Of a DNA stretch of 64,000 bases, positions 12,955 through 58,961 are shown piece after piece; position 1 is the first letter of the stretch, and each line of letters opens with the position of its first letter. The notes below the pieces were generated by a model, which saw nothing but the letters and a program-made list of their open reading frames with translations, had not been told where the DNA came from and ran no database searches. The DNA comes from Lysinibacillus irui (GTDB taxonomy: Bacteria; Bacillota; Bacilli; Bacillales_A; Planococcaceae): assembly GCF_028877475.1 (NCBI RefSeq), contig NZ_CP113527.1:3031501-3095500 (forward strand). The letters are read 5' to 3'. A program made the translations under genes and the position numbers.

Positions 12955-13160
12955 AGGACGAATCCCAATTGTGCCGTAATGCCAAGAAACATTCGTTTTG
13001 AACCCGCAATTTGCAGGGGGGTGCCCGCTTTGCAGCTTTAAACGTCCCGCTCCGCTAGGGGCATGTTTGCGACTACAAAATGAAGGCTCCCGATTCGATA
13101 ATGTTCGGTCAAAACTGTGAAGTAGAGTTAGCAGTTAGACAAACACATCAGGATTCGTAT
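12955..13160 (-). ncRNA. ssrS: 6S RNA (BsrA/SsrS)
   Basis: About 206 nt. The RNA binds sigma-A RNA polymerase by mimicking an open promoter. The closing stem pairs ACGAATCC at the 5' end with GGATTCGT at the 3' end (plus-strand positions about 13150-13158 and 12958-12966). Hallmark segments on the minus strand are CCTGATGTGT near the 5' end, TTTTGACCGAACAT, and ATCGGGAGCC, matching the Bacillus 6S-1 sequence as I recall it. Its place next to aspS is also conserved in Bacillus subtilis. A consensus promoter and a terminator bracket it. Confidence 0.95.
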
Positions 13161-16665: not shown

Positions 16666-16954
16666 CAAAAAAGCCCTCGTCTCCTTGCCATTGCAAGGGA
16701 CGAGAGCTGTATAAGCTTCCGCGGTTCCACCCTAGTTGACACAAAATATAAATCTGTGTCCTCCTCATAATCGGATAACGGCCGATTCCGTTTTTTCCTA
16801 GTAGGCATTGCTGCTTTTCAGAAAAAAGCCTCTCAAGTGTTATTCGCATCATACATATTTGTAGGAAAGATTGCAGCCTAAGTCTTCCCCTCTCTTTTCC
16901 AATAGAGGTACACGCTACTTGCTTGGTCATAAGCGATTAATCATTTTTCGATTA
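16666..16954 (-). promoter_or_regulatory. T-box riboswitch of hisS-aspS
   Basis: The conserved T-box AGGGTGGAACCGCG is at 16720-16733 (minus strand). The terminator stem pairs CTCGTCCCTTGC with GCAAGGAGACGAG (16674-16705) and ends in a T run at 16667-16672; the T-box segment can form the competing antiterminator. Stem I lies at about 16830-16925. Its basal helix CAAG/CTTG places the triplet AAC (16839-16841), followed by A, in the specifier position; CAC overlaps it at 16837-16839. Uncharged tRNA binding would permit read-through into hisS. Confidence 0.93.
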
Positions 16955-32104: not shown

Positions 32105-32130
32105 AAAAAGCCTACTCTTTTAAAGAGTAG
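32105..32130 (-). terminator. Terminator of the trp operon
   Basis: CTACTCTTT (32112-32120) and AAAGAGTAG (32122-32130) form a compact hairpin; TTTTT follows on the minus strand. The stem overlaps the trpA stop codon. Confidence 0.85.
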
Positions 32131-32911
32131 ACTTCGCTAGTATACCTTTAGAAGCAGCTATTAATGCTTCCACTGTTGCTATATCTCCATCATGCAGGGC
32201 CGTTACAATGGCGCTCCCGACAATAACCCCATCCCCTAATGCCCCCATCTTTTTGACGTGCTCAGGTGTCGAAATACCAAAGCCCGCCAGCACTGGGATT
32301 GGACTTGCCTGACGTAGACCTGCAAAATGATGTTCTAAATTATTAGCAAAATGAGACCTTGCTCCCGTAATACCATTAACGGTTACTGCATAAACAAAGC
32401 CCTGACTAGCAGCTGCAATACGGGCAATTCGATCTGGAGGGCTAGTTAAAGAAACGAGTTGAATCACATCAATACGATGAGGGTTTAATGTTTCACGTAG
32501 CAGTGCACTTTCTTCTAATGGGACATCTGGTACAATTAACCCTTTTACTCCTGCTGCTACACAGTCTTTGGCAAAGGTCTCTAAGCCATAAGCTAACACT
32601 GGATTGAAATAAGTCATGACCACTAGAGGCACCGTTATCTCCTCTCTAAATGAAGCGAGCGTTTGCAACACTTTCTTTAATGTCACACCAGCTGCCAGTG
32701 CGCGTTCTCCTGCACGCTCAATCGCCGTTCCATCCGCTACAGGATCTGTAAAGGGAATACCTACTTCAATCGCTGTCACACCGAGCTGTTGAAAAGTTAA
32801 AATCGTCGGCTTGATTGTTTCTAGCCCCCCATCACCTGCCATCATATAGGGGATAAAAGCTTTATTTCCTGTAGCCTTTGCTTGTTCAATTGCTTGTTTT
32901 AGTGTCGTCAT
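32120..32911 (-). CDS. trpA: Tryptophan synthase alpha subunit
   Basis: 263-aa TIM-barrel lyase that cleaves indole-3-glycerol phosphate and passes indole to TrpB. The catalytic aspartate lies in [19 protein letters not shown] (about residues 47-66) and the catalytic glutamate near residue 47 (AIEVG). The phosphate site ends with [13 protein letters not shown] and GVIVGSAIV. Its ATG overlaps the trpB TGA by four bases. Last gene of the operon. Confidence 0.96.
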
Positions 32912-34119
32912 TTAGCATCCCCTCCTAGTACCGCTCGAACTGTGTGAACATCTTTATCTCCACGACCAGATAAGCATACAACTATAATAGAATCCTTCGG
33001 CATTGTCTTAGCAAGCTTTGCTGTATAAGCAATGGCGTGGGAACTTTCAAGTGCAGGAAGAATGCCCTCTGTTCGACTTAACAATTGCAAGCCCTCTAGT
33101 GCCTCATCATCTGTAATGGAGTCAAATTGAGCTCGGCCAATATCATGTAAATAACAATGTTCGGGCCCTTTCCCTGGATAATCCAATCCGGCTGAAATAG
33201 AATGTGCTTCTTGAACAAAGCCATTTTCATCCTGTAATAAATACATATAAGCACCATGTAACACCCCTTGCTGTCCACCGGCAATGGCCGCTGCATGCTT
33301 TCCAGTATCAAGACCACTCCCTGCCGCCTCAACACCATATAGGGCTACTGATTCATCATCAACGAATGGATGAAACATACCTATAGCATTACTGCCACCG
33401 CCAATACAAGCAACTACTACATCTGGTAAACGTCCCTCTTTTTGCAAAATTTGCTTTCTTGTTTCAACGCCGATTACACGCTGGAAATCCCGAACAATTT
33501 TAGGAAATGGATGAGGGCCTAATGCAGAACCTAAAATATAATGCGTATCCTCAACATTTGTCACCCAATAGCGCAATGCTGCATTCACCGCATCCTTTAA
33601 GGTTTTAGAACCACTTTCCACCGACTCGACCTTCGTGCCAAGAAGCTCCATGCGAAACACATTTAGCTGTTGGCGTTTGATATCCTCTGCCCCCATAAAA
33701 ACAACACATTCTAGATTTAGTAAGGCACAAGCAGTAGCAGTTGCCACCCCATGCTGTCCTGCACCTGTTTCGGCAACAATTTTCTTTTTACCCATACGTT
33801 TAGCAAGTAGCGCTTGCCCTATGGCATTGTTTATTTTATGAGCCCCTGTATGGTTTAAATCTTCACGCTTTAAATAGACCTTTGCGCCACCTAGCTCCTT
33901 CGTTAAATTTTCAGCATAATAGAGAGGGGTTTCTCGTCCAACATACTCCTGTAAATAATAGGTAAGCTCCTCTGTAAAAGTTGCATCTTTTAATGCATCA
34001 TCATAGGCGGTTTCTAATTCTAGTAATGCGGTCATTAAAGTTTCTGGCACAAACTGACCACCAAATCGGCCGAAACGTCCTTCCTTTGTCGGTACACTAT
34101 TTGCAATTGAAATCCCCAT
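32908..34119 (-). CDS. trpB: Tryptophan synthase beta subunit
   Basis: 403-aa PLP enzyme that joins indole with serine. The PLP lysine sits in [17 protein letters not shown] (about residues 90-106). The [12 protein letters not shown] segment and the phosphate-cup GGGSNAIG (about 235) are intact, and the C-terminal SGRGDKD is present. Length is typical of TrpB1. The start codon overlaps the trpF stop by one base (TAATG). Confidence 0.97.
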
Positions 34120-34733
34120 TAGATGATCCCCCTCTTTACTGTCTTTAAAAATTCCTGTATTTTTGCAGAATTCTTCATTCCATCTGTTTCCACACCACTC
34201 GAAACATCCACCATAAAAGGGGCTACCGTTGTGATGGCCTCTTCAATATTGTCCACGTTGAGACCACCAGCTAATAGTAATTTTTCTCGTGGGATACCTA
34301 CCTCCTCCAGTAGGCTCCAGTCAAAAGTATGGCCACTGCCACCTTTAAAATCTGTCCCAGGTGCATCGAATAAATAATAATCTACCTGATAATCAGCTGC
34401 AGCTTGAATATCCTCTTTGCCTCGTACCGACAATGCCTTAATAGCTGGATAACCTTGTTCTTGAATAAATGCGGGCGTTTCTTCTCCATGATATTGCACA
34501 TAGTCTAATGGCACACGTTCTACCGCTTCCTTTAGTTCAGCTGCAGACGGATTGACAAAGACACCAATTTTTAATACCCCTTGAGGTACTTCGTTCGCTA
34601 AAAGCTGAGCTTGCTCAATAGTTACGCGACGTTTGCTCGGTGCGAAAACAAAACCAATGGCATCTGCACCAGCCTGAATAGCTGTTATGACATGTTCTTG
34701 TTTTTGAAATCCACAGATTTTAACTTTTGTCAT
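34119..34733 (-). CDS. trpF: Phosphoribosylanthranilate isomerase
   Basis: 204-aa TIM barrel. The catalytic cysteine is in VKICGFQ (residues 3-9), the catalytic aspartate in [19 protein letters not shown] (about 125-143), and the phosphate site is [10 protein letters not shown]. Start 34733 (MTKVKICGF) has AAAGGAGG upstream and overlaps the trpC end by 14 bases; the longer frame into trpC has no homology. Confidence 0.95.
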
Positions 34734-35520
34734 ACAGAAGCCCCTCCTTTCGTACTTGAAAACATTGTAGTGCCTGCCCAGCATCTCCACTGCGCATTAA
34801 TGCCTCCCCTACAAGAATTCCACTAGCCCCCATGGCTGCAACTTGTTGTGCATCTTCCTGTGACCAAATACCGCTTTCACTTATTAATACACGGTTTTCA
34901 TTAAATGGAAAAGCGTCAGCAATTTCTTGTGTACGTTGTAAACTGACCTCAAACGTGCGTAAATCTCGATTATTAACACCAATCAACTTTGCATCTACTG
35001 CAAGTGCACGGTCGAGCTCCTCTCTATCGTGCACTTCCACTAAAACCTCTAAGCCTAACCCAGTTGCGTAGCTATATAAATCTCGTAAAGATTCGTCTGT
35101 CAAAGCAGCTACAATTAATAAAATAATGGATGCTCCTGCTGCCTTCGCAAATCGAATCTGCACCCTATCAATCATGAAATCCTTACATAGTAGAGGGATA
35201 TTCACAACACTAGCAACCGCTGCTAAATCGTCAAAAGAGCCTTTGAAAAATTCTTTATCGGTTAAGACAGAAATGGCGGCTGCTCCTGCTTGTGCATAGA
35301 TTTGTCCTTGGGCAACTGGATTTGCCCCTTCTGCAATTAGCCCCTTGGAAGGAGAAGCACGTTTCATTTCAGCAATGACTTGTAACGTATTCGCCTGTCG
35401 TAGCGAATCAAATAACGATGGACGTGTCTTTTCTGTATAACTTGCTAGAGGATCAGGTTGCTCTAATAAAGCATCTACTTCTATCCTCTTTTGCTGTAGA
35501 ATTTTGTTAAGTATATTCAT
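34720..35520 (-). CDS. trpC: Indole-3-glycerol phosphate synthase
   Basis: 266-aa TIM-barrel enzyme. The N-terminal helix and catalytic lysine region VIAEMKRASPSKGLI (about residues 48-62), the second lysine region LLCKDFMIDRVQI and the general-base region LIGVNNRDLRTFEV are conserved, with phosphate binding at ISESGIW and ILVGEALM. Its start overlaps the trpD stop by four bases (ATGA). Confidence 0.96.
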   Translation of the reverse strand: MNILNKILQQKRIEVDALLEQPDPLASYTEKTRPSLFDSLRQANTLQVIAEMKRASPSKGLIAEGANPVAQGQIYAQAGAAAISVLTDKEFFKGSFDDLAAVASVVNIPLLCKDFMIDRVQIRFAKAAGASIILLIVAALTDESLRDLYSYATGLGLEVLVEVHDREELDRALAVDAKLIGVNNRDLRTFEVSLQRTQEIADAFPFNENRVLISESGIWSQEDAQQVAAMGASGILVGEALMRSGDAGQALQCFQVRKEGLLYDKS

Positions 35521-36548
35521 AAACCTACCTCCACTTTTTTTATTTGCTCGCTAAAGGTAACTACCGCTTCCAATTTTTGAAGTGCTCGCCCACTAAAAAT
35601 ACTTTCCTTTGCCATGGCTACCCCTTCTTTAATCGTTTCTGCTTGACCATAGCCAAATAAGCCAATACCTGTATTGAATAACACAGTATCTAAATAGGCA
35701 CTCTGCTCCCCAGCTAATAGTTTTCTCATGAGTACAGCATTTTCATCTGCATTGCCACCTCTGATTGCCTCTAACGGTGCAAATGGGAGACCAACATCTT
35801 CTGCTGTTAAGGAAAAAGGAATTAAATCCCCTTTATCTACTAAAACTAGCGTATTTTGACCCGCTAACGAAGCTTCATCTAAGCCTTGTGGTCCTGATAC
35901 GACAATGGCTCGTTCACGCCCAAGCATTTGTAAAACAGAAGCATATTCCATTACAAAATTAGGTCGGTTAATTCCCGTGAACTGTGTTGACAATGGGACT
36001 GGATTTGTTAAAGGTCCAACAAGATTAAAGATTGTTGGTTTCCCTATTGAACGGCGAACCTCCCCAATCCGCTTTAATTTTGGATGAACATTTGGCGCAT
36101 AGAGAAAGGCGATTCCTTCTTTCTCCAATAACTCAATAGTTTGCGGAATAGAAATAGCTGTATGAATACCTAATGCCTCCAATACATCGGAACTGCCCGA
36201 GGAAGATGATATTTTGCGGTTTCCATGCTTGGCTATTTTGACGCCTGCTCCAGCTAGTACAAAAGCGGAAGCTGTACTGATATTAAAAGTATGAAGTCCA
36301 TCACCGCCAGTACCGCAATTATCCATATAGCCACTAGCTTGTATGGCTACCTCACGTGCAAAAGACCGCATAATTGTTGCTAATGCTGCTACCTCATGCG
36401 CCGTTTCTCCCTTTACTGATAAAGCTGTTAAAAAGCATGCCATTTGGTCTTTAGGTGTCTGATCATCAAATAACCATTGTGCCGCCTTCAGCATTTCCTC
36501 ATACATTAAGTGTTCGCCTTGCAACACTTTTTGTTGTAATTGTTCCAT
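35517..36548 (-). CDS. trpD: Anthranilate phosphoribosyltransferase
   Basis: 343-aa enzyme joining anthranilate to PRPP. The PRPP-binding CGTGGDGLHTFNIST (about residues 79-93), the KHGNR motif and the following SSSSGSSDVLEALG are present; the usual Ala of GSADVLE is Ser. The anthranilate-site RRSIGKPTIFNLVGPLTNP is intact. It looks fully functional, in contrast to the upstream TrpE-like protein. ATG overlaps the trpE-like stop by one base. Confidence 0.95.
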   Translation of the reverse strand: MEQLQQKVLQGEHLMYEEMLKAAQWLFDDQTPKDQMACFLTALSVKGETAHEVAALATIMRSFAREVAIQASGYMDNCGTGGDGLHTFNISTASAFVLAGAGVKIAKHGNRKISSSSGSSDVLEALGIHTAISIPQTIELLEKEGIAFLYAPNVHPKLKRIGEVRRSIGKPTIFNLVGPLTNPVPLSTQFTGINRPNFVMEYASVLQMLGRERAIVVSGPQGLDEASLAGQNTLVLVDKGDLIPFSLTAEDVGLPFAPLEAIRGGNADENAVLMRKLLAGEQSAYLDTVLFNTGIGLFGYGQAETIKEGVAMAKESIFSGRALQKLEAVVTFSEQIKKVEVGL

Positions 36549-37903
36549 TAATCCTGCCCTCCATTGTTCGTCAGTAACTGTAAAAATGCCTCTTGTTCCT
36601 CTTTCACTCGATCTAATACTTTCTGCACGTCTGTATATTTCGTCACGGTGATGGTCGTTTGCATATTCATGGATTCATGATCAGCTACAATGGACTGTCC
36701 TGTTAAGGCAAAATCTAAATGTCCATTAAATCCAATAAAGCCTAGAGCTCCACCAAAATTGGACCTTTTTTTAATAGATCGTGCTATCTGTTCATTTGGA
36801 AATCCCACAGTCGAAAATGTTGGCAATGTTGCTGCTAATACGTCAAGCGCATGAAGCATAGGTAAAAGCTGCCCCTCCACCGTTGATGTCATATGCAATG
36901 CCTGTTTCGATTCCTCAATACGCATGGCATCAATAATTTGAACAGAGTCTCTGAAGCAAACAGACTGTAAATCTTGTTGAACTGTACGAACAAGAAGCGC
37001 ATGTGATTTTCTAATGGCCGAATGATCGTATAATTTGCGCTCATTTTCTAGGTCTTCACTTTTTGTCTCCCCTCCTGGATATGTCCCCTCCATAGGTGTT
37101 GCAATGACTTTATCTCCTTTGACACGTATCAGACTTTCAGGGGAAGTTCCTAATACAACATAATCATCGAATTCTATATAATACATATAGGCTGCTGGCT
37201 TCATTTTACGTAGCTGTCGGTATAAGGTAAACGCATGCCCCTGAAAGTTTGCTACATATTGCTTGGGCAGTACAACCCGTGAGATATCATTAGTTAAACT
37301 TTCTTGTATTGTCTGTAAATCTTTTGCGAATTGTACATAGGACATCCTCTCGAGTCCATGATACCGAGAAGTTGCTTCATCACTTACATGTCCGTTTAAC
37401 AATTGTTGTGCCAATTCTTCTAAACTAGGTTGTTGTTTTTCCGCATCAATATTTGTATGAATTAATGTCACTTCATCGGTTAGATGATCAAACACAATAA
37501 TTGTTTCATACACATGAAAATGGGCCTCAAGCATTTCTACTTGATTGTCGTTGAACACCTTTGTTCCACTATGACCTATAAAACCAACAGCCCCTCCAGA
37601 GAATGGAAATTGTGTCGTATTGGTAATGCGTGGCATTAGTCGTTTAAGTAGGACAAAGAGGTTTCCTTTATGCACATATGTTTTTCCAGTTTCATGGGAA
37701 ATCTCCTGAATTTCTTGGCCCATTCCTTTATAAGTCTTTCTTGGATTCGCTCCAATAAATGAAAATCTTCCTGCTCCCTCATGCTGGGAGGAGCTCTCCA
37801 GCAAAAATTTATGTGTACCCTGTAACCGTCTAAAAATCAAAATAGGTGTTAAAGAATCGCCATTAATGGTTTTCATTTTTGTCCTAGAACTCATTGTTTG
37901 CAT
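36548..37903 (-). CDS. trpE: TrpE-like (chorismate-utilising fold) protein lacking catalytic residues
   Basis: 451-aa open frame at the TrpE position. The N-terminal half is recognisable: LTPILIFRRLQGTHKFLLES contains the tryptophan-binding LLES motif, followed by FSFIGANP and GGAVGF. In the C-terminal half only traces remain: SPESLIRV is kept, but the metal/chorismate block usually written AEHxMLVDLxRNDxGRV reads KSHALLVRTVQQDLQSV (about residues 300-316), GTxxGAPK reads STVGFPNEQ, the IRT motif after the glycine-rich strand reads LTGQS, and the GAGIVADSxPxxEYEE block is gone. Hydrophobic spacing is preserved without stops or shifts. It is either a recent non-functional paralogue or a pseudoenzyme, for example a tryptophan or chorismate sensor. 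AAAGGAG precedes the ATG. Confidence 0.85.
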   Translation of the reverse strand: MQTMSSRTKMKTINGDSLTPILIFRRLQGTHKFLLESSSQHEGAGRFSFIGANPRKTYKGMGQEIQEISHETGKTYVHKGNLFVLLKRLMPRITNTTQFPFSGGAVGFIGHSGTKVFNDNQVEMLEAHFHVYETIIVFDHLTDEVTLIHTNIDAEKQQPSLEELAQQLLNGHVSDEATSRYHGLERMSYVQFAKDLQTIQESLTNDISRVVLPKQYVANFQGHAFTLYRQLRKMKPAAYMYYIEFDDYVVLGTSPESLIRVKGDKVIATPMEGTYPGGETKSEDLENERKLYDHSAIRKSHALLVRTVQQDLQSVCFRDSVQIIDAMRIEESKQALHMTSTVEGQLLPMLHALDVLAATLPTFSTVGFPNEQIARSIKKRSNFGGALGFIGFNGHLDFALTGQSIVADHESMNMQTTITVTKYTDVQKVLDRVKEEQEAFLQLLTNNGGQD

Positions 37904-37963
37904 AGCTATTAAACTCCTTTTTAAAGATTCTTTTTCACTGTTTAGTCGAATGCTGAATCAAAT

Positions 37964-38317
37964 AAAAAAGCCCTCTGCAAAAAGGATTAATCCTAATTGC
38001 AGAGGACGATCATGACCGCGTTGCCACCTCATATTAGAGCATTTGCTCTCACCTTTGTGCTTTCCAGCTCTGTTTTACATATGGAAAAGCACCCCTATAA
38101 CGTGGGGAATCACGTTCGCTGTTTATTAGCGACTCTCATAAGTCCATTCACATAAGCTGTAAATCAGTTTACACCAACCACTGACTCTCTACATTACAGG
38201 ACTTATGTTACTACTCTTATTCAACAATTTCTCAGCTATTCTCATCTAAACTCAGCTCATCTGTTCTTAGGCTGACCTCGCTCCCGAAGCCTTCTACCTG
38301 ATCCGAACAAAAAGTTA
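37964..38317 (-). promoter_or_regulatory. Tryptophan-specific T-box riboswitch of the trp operon
   Basis: The T-box AGGTGGCAACGCGG is at 38016-38029 on the minus strand. The terminator pairs CCTCTGCAA with TTGCAGAGG (37972-38003), with a T run at 37965-37970. Stem I carries the classical AGAGAGTCAGTGGTTGG segment, and the specifier loop GTGAATGGA places the Trp codon TGG just before the closing helix (about 38143). Transcription of the biosynthetic genes would rise when tRNA-Trp is uncharged. Bacillus subtilis uses the TRAP protein here instead. Confidence 0.93.
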
Positions 38318-58860: not shown

Positions 58861-58961
58861 TCCTCTTAGACTCAGACTCGCCTGTTTAATAAAGGTGATC
58901 CTATCAGATACTTAAACCTTTCCAGAGCGGTTGTAGTAGCACGGGTGCTACAAACAATAAC
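58861..58961 (-). promoter_or_regulatory. Ribosomal protein L21 leader RNA
   Basis: The rplU 5' leader matches the Firmicutes L21 leader layout: a hairpin TGTAGCACCCGTGCTACTACA-like segment at about 58930-58955, then CCGCTCTGGAAAGG and GATAGGATCACC before the ribosome site. Such leaders are thought to give autogenous control by L21. Motif-level recognition only. Confidence 0.7.

Follow-up and report, generated by a model that had tools for sequence, protein, structure and literature searches.

In Lysinibacillus irui, the trp operon begins with a gene for a protein, hereafter called pseudo-TrpE, that by alignment is homologous to TrpE but has no catalytic site. The gene was examined in a window of 64,000 nucleotides (NCBI RefSeq assembly GCF_028877475.1, contig NZ_CP113527.1, positions 3,031,501 to 3,095,500) and consists of an open reading frame of 451 codons at the head of an operon controlled by a T-box. 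By the same alignment its product retains most of the published tryptophan-site residues, and pseudo-TrpE is probably a tryptophan-binding regulatory pseudoenzyme and not an enzyme; we infer the tryptophan binding, the regulation and the identity of the regulated protein alike from sequence comparison. All 32 genomes of the genus (g1) that were searched carry pseudo-TrpE, with 61–100% identity, so that chance is no explanation for its presence.

The residues followed in this analysis were taken from print, i.e., the magnesium and ligand contacts of MbtI (PMC8008425), and the tryptophan motif and pocket of the TrpE proteins of Mycobacterium tuberculosis (PMC6437058), in which the pocket contacts rest on docking and superposition, and of Serratia (PMC10464499). 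The published sites were transferred with the help of conserved motifs via the canonical TrpE of the L. irui genome (see below), to which the M. tuberculosis chain was also aligned; the Serratia and MbtI residues were placed by motif only. A column was regarded as near-invariant when it was at least 95% identical in 72 catalytic rows, and as kept when the residue was found in at least 29 of the 32 genus proteins. In the proper alignment, AEH is changed to KSH, AGT to EGT and IRT to GQS, and the GAGIV...EYEE segment is absent. None of the four magnesium-binding Glu residues is kept in any of the 32 genus members, the chorismate Arg remains in two of them, and both Gly of GAG are kept in none. 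The first-pass annotation had described the C-terminal half as stripped of nearly all residues conserved in chorismate-utilising enzymes; the loss of these blocks holds, but the chorismate-site Gly (G273) is still present in 32/32 and the active-site His (H337) in 29/32 genus members, and 32 of the 80 other near-invariant columns of the C-half are kept. Its proposal of a pseudoenzyme agrees with the alignment, which gives no canonical catalytic set, and with the purifying selection across species described below. Among 60 proteins from six genera (see below), 58 are without any of the four magnesium Glu residues, the exceptions being the g6 protein with two of them and one g10 protein with one aligned Glu in its tail.

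The residues of the tryptophan site are, in comparison, mostly kept: 10 of the 12 near-invariant tryptophan-site columns survive in the genus versus 2 of the 13 catalytic-site columns (Fisher p 0.0012). The allosteric LLES motif, the retention of which had been noticed in the window protein, is found together with R65, S67, F68, H170, Y284 and D453 in all 32 genus members, M285 in 31, and the equivalent of Serratia Pro291 in 19. Across the six genera, LLES, R65, S67, F68, H170 and D453 are present in 60/60 and Y284 in 59/60 proteins, and a total of nine published residues of the tryptophan motif and pocket are kept in all 60.

All 32 genus copies are open frames of at least 442 amino acids, and no frame-breaking stop was found among them; the TAA found in one genome (G016) appears to be the end of its own gene, a frame of 446 amino acids. 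The median ratio of nonsynonymous to synonymous substitution rates (dN/dS) by the Nei–Gojobori method was 0.148 for pseudo-TrpE (113 pairs, 0.02<dS<1.2), the corresponding medians being 0.078 (separate TrpE), 0.065 (TrpD) and 0.087 (TrpG); the value for pseudo-TrpE is thus roughly double that of its neighbours and well away from neutrality. Codon-model maximum-likelihood estimates of omega were 0.082 for the N-half and 0.146 for the C-half of the genus pseudo-TrpE, 0.120 and 0.046 for the separate TrpE of these species, and 0.074 and 0.054 for the catalytic-looking operon orthologues of g17, of which 28 of the 68 genomes were fetched. The median pairwise ratio of dN in the N-half to that in the C-half was likewise 0.62 for pseudo-TrpE, 1.81 for the separate TrpE and 1.33 for the g17 orthologues. 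As judged from these codon comparisons, pseudo-TrpE is under purifying selection that is inverted toward the N-half relative to the separate TrpE. Plain decay, which the first-pass annotation had set out as one of the outcomes that would speak against a pseudoenzyme, was rejected on the 32 open frames and on omega values well below 1. Between the genus and g17 orthologues, the identity is 53% in the N-half and 35% in the C-half, the C-half identity between g17 and the g14 and g19 orthologues being 52–57%. A count of 72 gained invariants in the genus is confounded by the comparison of one genus with several, and was not used as evidence.

Both Pfam domains of TrpE are recognised in pseudo-TrpE above the cut-off (Anth_synt_I_N, 91.5 bits; Chorismate_bind, 138.4 bits), and the NCBI equivalog model of TrpE (TIGR00564) gives 253.5 bits, under its cut-off of 517.7. 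The genome of the window encodes a total of four chorismate-binding homologues, i.e., pseudo-TrpE, a protein that we take from its translation to be PabB, with presumed PabA and PabC neighbours, a presumably MenF-like protein, and a canonical TrpE followed by TrpG. The identity of pseudo-TrpE as PabB or MenF was rejected on the low equivalog scores (the best of the NCBIfam PabB models gives 119.4 bits against a cut-off of 408.55) and on the presence of the separate PabB and MenF-like genes. The canonical trpE also lies behind a T-box (158 bits), the specifier position of which reads UGG. TrpG is usually, though not universally, encoded beside TrpE; here trpG is not beside pseudo-trpE, which is followed by trpD, and sits with the other TrpE. 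Since the canonical TrpE–TrpG pair is present, the strain should be able to make anthranilate. A catalytic TrpE encoded elsewhere had been predicted as one of two alternatives, and the genome search found it, canonical-looking and with TrpG; the other, a requirement for tryptophan for want of TrpE, is rejected by the same pair.

The separate TrpE accompanies pseudo-TrpE in all 32 genus genomes, in 4/4 genomes of g6 and g8, and in 23/24 of g3, g10 and g16, the one miss being a genome of 90% completeness. In one of the 32 (G021:C1:2735000-2744500) the canonical trpE is split by a frame change, either real or an assembly error, and the pseudo-TrpE of this genome is an open frame; the split TrpE was dropped from the alignments. 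Extra chorismate-binding homologues were also observed, as an open frame of 388–389 amino acids in G011, G013, G021 and G028, presumably of the size of isochorismate synthase, and as one of 503 amino acids in G012, G027 and G029.

Relatives of pseudo-TrpE were sought among 261 genomes of the family, and a search at the level of the order covered these same genomes. A whole-protein family search (cut-off 1e-74) listed none from g3, g10 or g16, and a query with the N-half found them in short frames. At all 24 loci fetched from these three genera, pseudo-trpE lies directly before trpD, and a T-box was found at 17/17 of the loci searched. The start codon was set at the first ATG, GTG or TTG of each frame, and the lengths and some gaps are uncertain to that extent. 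The g6 protein (one species) keeps two magnesium Glu residues and has lost the C-terminal pair. In g8, catalytic blocks of 38 and 14 residues are deleted in frame in 3/3 species, the ends of the deletions differing by a few columns between two alignments. The frames of g16 are 326–389 and those of g10 257–310 amino acids long, with uncertain starts, and of the 271 columns of the C-half 152 are kept in g16 (119 gone) and 98 in g10 (173 gone). The g10 proteins, which retain 255 of the 461 TrpE columns, consist of the N-domain, a strand with the tryptophan-contacting Tyr, a helix and a strand ending in the tryptophan-contacting Asp, and the retained segments end one column short of the catalytic Gly and Arg positions; all six tryptophan-contact columns of the C-half are present, with three residues unchanged (Tyr, Tyr and Asp). 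The N-domain and the two tryptophan-pocket strands are thus kept in both the g10 and g16 forms. By Pfam, one g10 and one g16 protein gave Anth_synt_I_N above and Chorismate_bind below the cut-off, and one protein each of g3, g6 and g8 gave both above. These shortened forms of g10 and g16 are also under purifying selection (omega 0.076–0.165; in g10, 0.076 for the N-half and 0.129 for the rest). Altogether the proteins form a series from the catalytic-looking g17, g19 and, nearly so, g14, through the half-dead g6 and the full-length dead g1, to the excised g8, g3 and g16 and the shortest, g10.

Several side observations were made on these genera. A preQ1 riboswitch was found to precede the trp operon by about 1 kb at 1/1 loci searched in g6, 1/1 in g8, 9/9 in g16, 2/5 in g10 and 0/3 in g3. 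At one locus (G224:C1:622300-631500), both trpE and trpD are split over two frames; the assembly is 83% complete with 9% contamination, the cause is probably sequence quality, and G224 was left out of the trees and site tables. In g17, 66 of the 68 genomes were without a TrpG/PabA homologue over the family cut-off; a catalytic-looking operon TrpE was read in 28 genomes, a PabB-like match was found in 5 of 7 genomes checked, and what we take to be glutaminases of CarA or GuaA size were matched at low score. This pattern suggests that anthranilate and aminodeoxychorismate are synthesised in g17 in an ammonia-dependent manner.

In a tree of 65 rows, including 17 of the 32 genus genomes, the TrpE of the operon and the separate one appear as a pair of old paralogues, and the branch of the operon copy that leads to the genus is 0.96 changes per column long. 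Each genome of g14 and g19 carries, besides the trp operon copy, a TrpE that accompanies TrpG, both with all four magnesium Glu residues; because both copies are found there, they seem to predate the loss of the active site. The operon copies of g14 and g19 keep the four Glu, the Arg and the His; drift at substrate-site positions was observed in g14 (T361>A in 2/2, Y385>F in 1/2 and G421>A in 1/2), and G419>R in 1/3 copies of g19. Both the N-half tree (95/92) and the separate-TrpE tree (99/99) group the six genera with dead copies in a single clade. Each tree was made with 11 of the 32 genus genomes, and that of the separate TrpE included 15 of the 23 copies identified in g3, g10 and g16. E431 is kept in 0/60 and E434 in 1/60 proteins, the latter as an aligned tail residue. 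The simplest history suggested by these sequences would be one first inactivation at the C-terminal magnesium pair, followed by independent erosion. The trees conflict on the nearest relatives: g14 and g19 stand nearest the operon clade of g1, g6 and g8 in the 65-row tree (92/76), and g17 and g13 nearest the dead clade in the N-half tree (90/54); g3 groups with g1 in the N-half tree (93/74) versus with g6, g8, g10 and g16 in the separate-TrpE tree (82/60). None of these conflicting placements is a starred branch or has strong support.

Within the proposed mechanism, the operon trpE would have become redundant as an enzyme on account of the separate trpE–trpG pair of the lineage; the chorismate and magnesium site would then have been lost and the regulatory half kept. 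The product would fold around L-tryptophan by means of the LLES-X10-S motif of the N-domain and two strands of the C-domain, and the tryptophan signal would be passed to a partner, for which TrpD is the first candidate and the separate TrpE the second. TrpD is put first because its gene overlaps pseudo-trpE in 29/32 genus genomes versus 1/28 genomes of g17 with catalytic orthologues. In enteric bacteria, a review describes feedback inhibition of TrpD as seen in the complex with anthranilate synthase (PMC10464499). For the six genera together, we tentatively raise the possibility of an allosteric subunit made from TrpE stripped toward its tryptophan pocket and feeding back on another enzyme of the pathway, most simply TrpD, in which case an allosteric domain would have outlived its own enzyme and changed clients. 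A number of observations weigh against the tryptophan-binding regulator. The tryptophan residues of the N-half (7/7) are no better kept than its other near-invariant columns (16/19), so that their conservation could serve folding or dimerisation, and the Fisher test separates the effector and catalytic halves better than it singles out the pocket. In the C-half, 3/5 tryptophan-site columns are kept as against 32/80 others, the pocket residue Y445 is Phe in 32/32 genus members, and among the 60 proteins the pocket Pro is kept in 34 and the Met (M285) in 50, Leu being found at the latter position in all five of g10. No clear co-evolution of TrpD was detected (2 clade-specific invariants in 343 columns, versus 0/263 in TrpC and 1/205 in TrpF), and the overlap with trpD is missing from some shortened relatives (g16, 7/16; g10, 2/5; g8, 1/3). 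The separate TrpE, moreover, keeps its own tryptophan site (31/31 rows, with one Leu>Phe), and so needs no borrowed sensor.

The conservation of the whole N-half, the other near-invariant columns included, and the overlap with trpD would also suit a scaffold that senses no tryptophan and on which the folding, stability or assembly of TrpD or of the separate TrpE depends, for which the inactive TrpA of Chlamydia trachomatis, described as needed for TrpB (PMC3937554), is a precedent; such a subunit need not keep both tryptophan-pocket strands of the C-domain, which even the short forms of g10 and g16 keep, and we regard it as unlikely. A prozyme-like subunit, one that uses its N-half to pair with the separate catalytic TrpE and modulates the activity of this enzyme, would account for the co-occurrence of the two proteins described above; the X10 loop and the HHEGT motif of M. 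tuberculosis TrpE are placed at the dimer interface (PMC6437058), and the X10 loop is similar in pseudo-TrpE and the separate TrpE. This pairing is nevertheless rather improbable, the N-half identity between the two being just 36%, their genes being unlinked, and the separate TrpE looking complete alone. Retention of G273 and H337 and the purifying selection on the C-half of the genus proteins could point to an enzyme with a changed reaction, which binds chorismate or a related ligand without magnesium, but the four magnesium Glu and the two pocket Gly are missing from 32/32 and the Arg from 30/32 genus members, and g8, g10 and g16 delete much of the catalytic region, so that we give this very little credence. 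The overlap with trpD in most genus genomes might finally be all that is preserved, as a relic kept solely for translational coupling of trpD to an upstream open frame. Such a relic predicts dN/dS near 1 and is disfavoured because the omega values of the genus and of g10 and g16 are far below it; in addition, at ten positions that are near-invariant in catalytic TrpE the genus has a different residue that is itself invariant, and some of these replacements could be neutral markers of one genus. We consider this relic the most remote of the explanations. Decay alone or translational coupling alone does not explain the pattern.

Table 1. Features of the pseudo-trpE locus, other elements of the window and the separate TrpE–TrpG pair. 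Positions are those of the window unless preceded by C1.
Feature	Position	Strand	Basis
TrpE-derived predicted pseudoenzyme (pseudo-TrpE), 451 amino acids, first trp operon gene	36548..37903	-	open reading frame, Pfam, alignment
Ribosome-binding site AAGGAG, 10 nt 5' of ATG	37914..37919	-	read from sequence
T-box leader, specifier UGG (Trp)	37999..38233	-	Rfam RF00230, 116.8 bits; specifier by eye in alignment
LLES-X10-S-F, putative allosteric Trp motif, retained, residues 34-49	37757..37804	-	alignment; motif function as described in PMC6437058
AYM, residues 238-240, predicted Trp-contacting strand; Tyr and Met kept, Pro>Ala in window protein	37184..37192	-	alignment
IRKS, residues 297-300; place of Mg ligands MbtI E294/E297, both lost	37004..37015	-	alignment; ligands as described in PMC8008425
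GALGFIGFNGHLD, residues 385-397, predicted second Trp-pocket strand; Asp kept, Tyr>Phe	36713..36751	-	alignment
Residues 429-432; place of Mg ligands MbtI E431/E434, both lost	36608..36619	-	alignment
trpD, one-base overlap with pseudo-trpE stop (36548)	35517..36548	-	Pfam Glycos_transf_3
trpC	34720..35520	-	Pfam IGPS
Presumed trpF	34119..34733	-	name assumed from sequence; start picked inside open reading frame 34119-34790
Presumed trpB	32908..34119	-	name assumed
Presumed trpA	32120..32911	-	name assumed
Second T-box	16693-16939		
6S RNA	12958-13157		
L21 leader	58864-58942		
Canonical TrpE	C1:2878604-2879986		
TrpG, following canonical TrpE	C1:2878035-2878604		

The frame of pseudo-trpE, its one-base overlap with trpD, the good ribosome-binding site and the tryptophan T-box upstream, all of which the first-pass annotation had described, are found at the positions listed in Table 1. 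The UGG specifier was read as the triplet after GAA in the T-box alignment. The three other RNA elements of the window are unrelated to pseudo-TrpE.

TrpE is a classic feedback-inhibited enzyme. An enzyme-derived regulator in amino-acid biosynthesis, as proposed here for pseudo-TrpE, is already represented by HisZ, the regulatory subunit of HisG, but HisZ is derived from a tRNA synthetase and not from the first enzyme of the pathway. C. trachomatis TrpA, for its part, is not known to duplicate an enzyme whose active form the genome also encodes. As is characteristic of regulatory pseudoenzymes, a catalytic-looking paralogue is present in the genome, and the sequence, its catalytic residues gone, is still under purifying selection. 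Pseudo-TrpE shares with TrpE (TIGR00564) both Pfam domains, the LLES-X10-S tryptophan motif, the position at the head of the trp operon and the tryptophan T-box, but it is without the magnesium ligands, the Arg/Gly pocket for chorismate and an adjacent trpG, and it scores below the equivalog cut-off. The tryptophan site of TrpE is described in print (PMC6437058, PMC10464499), and dead paralogues that regulate an enzyme are also known from published examples (PMC12727527, PMC5201418). The prozyme of AdoMetDC in Trypanosoma brucei is likewise a dead paralogue of a biosynthetic enzyme of the same genome, but there the partner and the activation are described from structure (PMC5201418), whereas pseudo-TrpE, known from its sequence, lies in another operon than the active copy and is under selection centred on the effector half. 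The TSB-like pseudoenzyme of eudicots, also a dead paralogue of a tryptophan-pathway enzyme, is described as an allosteric activator of TSA (PMC12727527); it is derived from TSB (TrpB) with two key residues lost, whereas pseudo-TrpE is derived from TrpE and much of the catalytic domain is gone in some genera. The inactive TrpA of C. trachomatis is similar in being a dead subunit of the tryptophan pathway kept in the operon, and differs in that it is reported as required for TrpB function (PMC3937554). In the open-access literature searched, no report of a regulatory pseudoenzyme derived from TrpE was found.

For annotation, these observations carry a warning: the gene that opens the trp operon in the 60 species studied here resembles trpE and is not expected to make anthranilate. 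Evolution seems here to split a sensor from its enzyme, with intermediates in living genera, and the general question of whether an allosteric domain may live on as a regulator in its own right once the active site is lost is thereby made testable.

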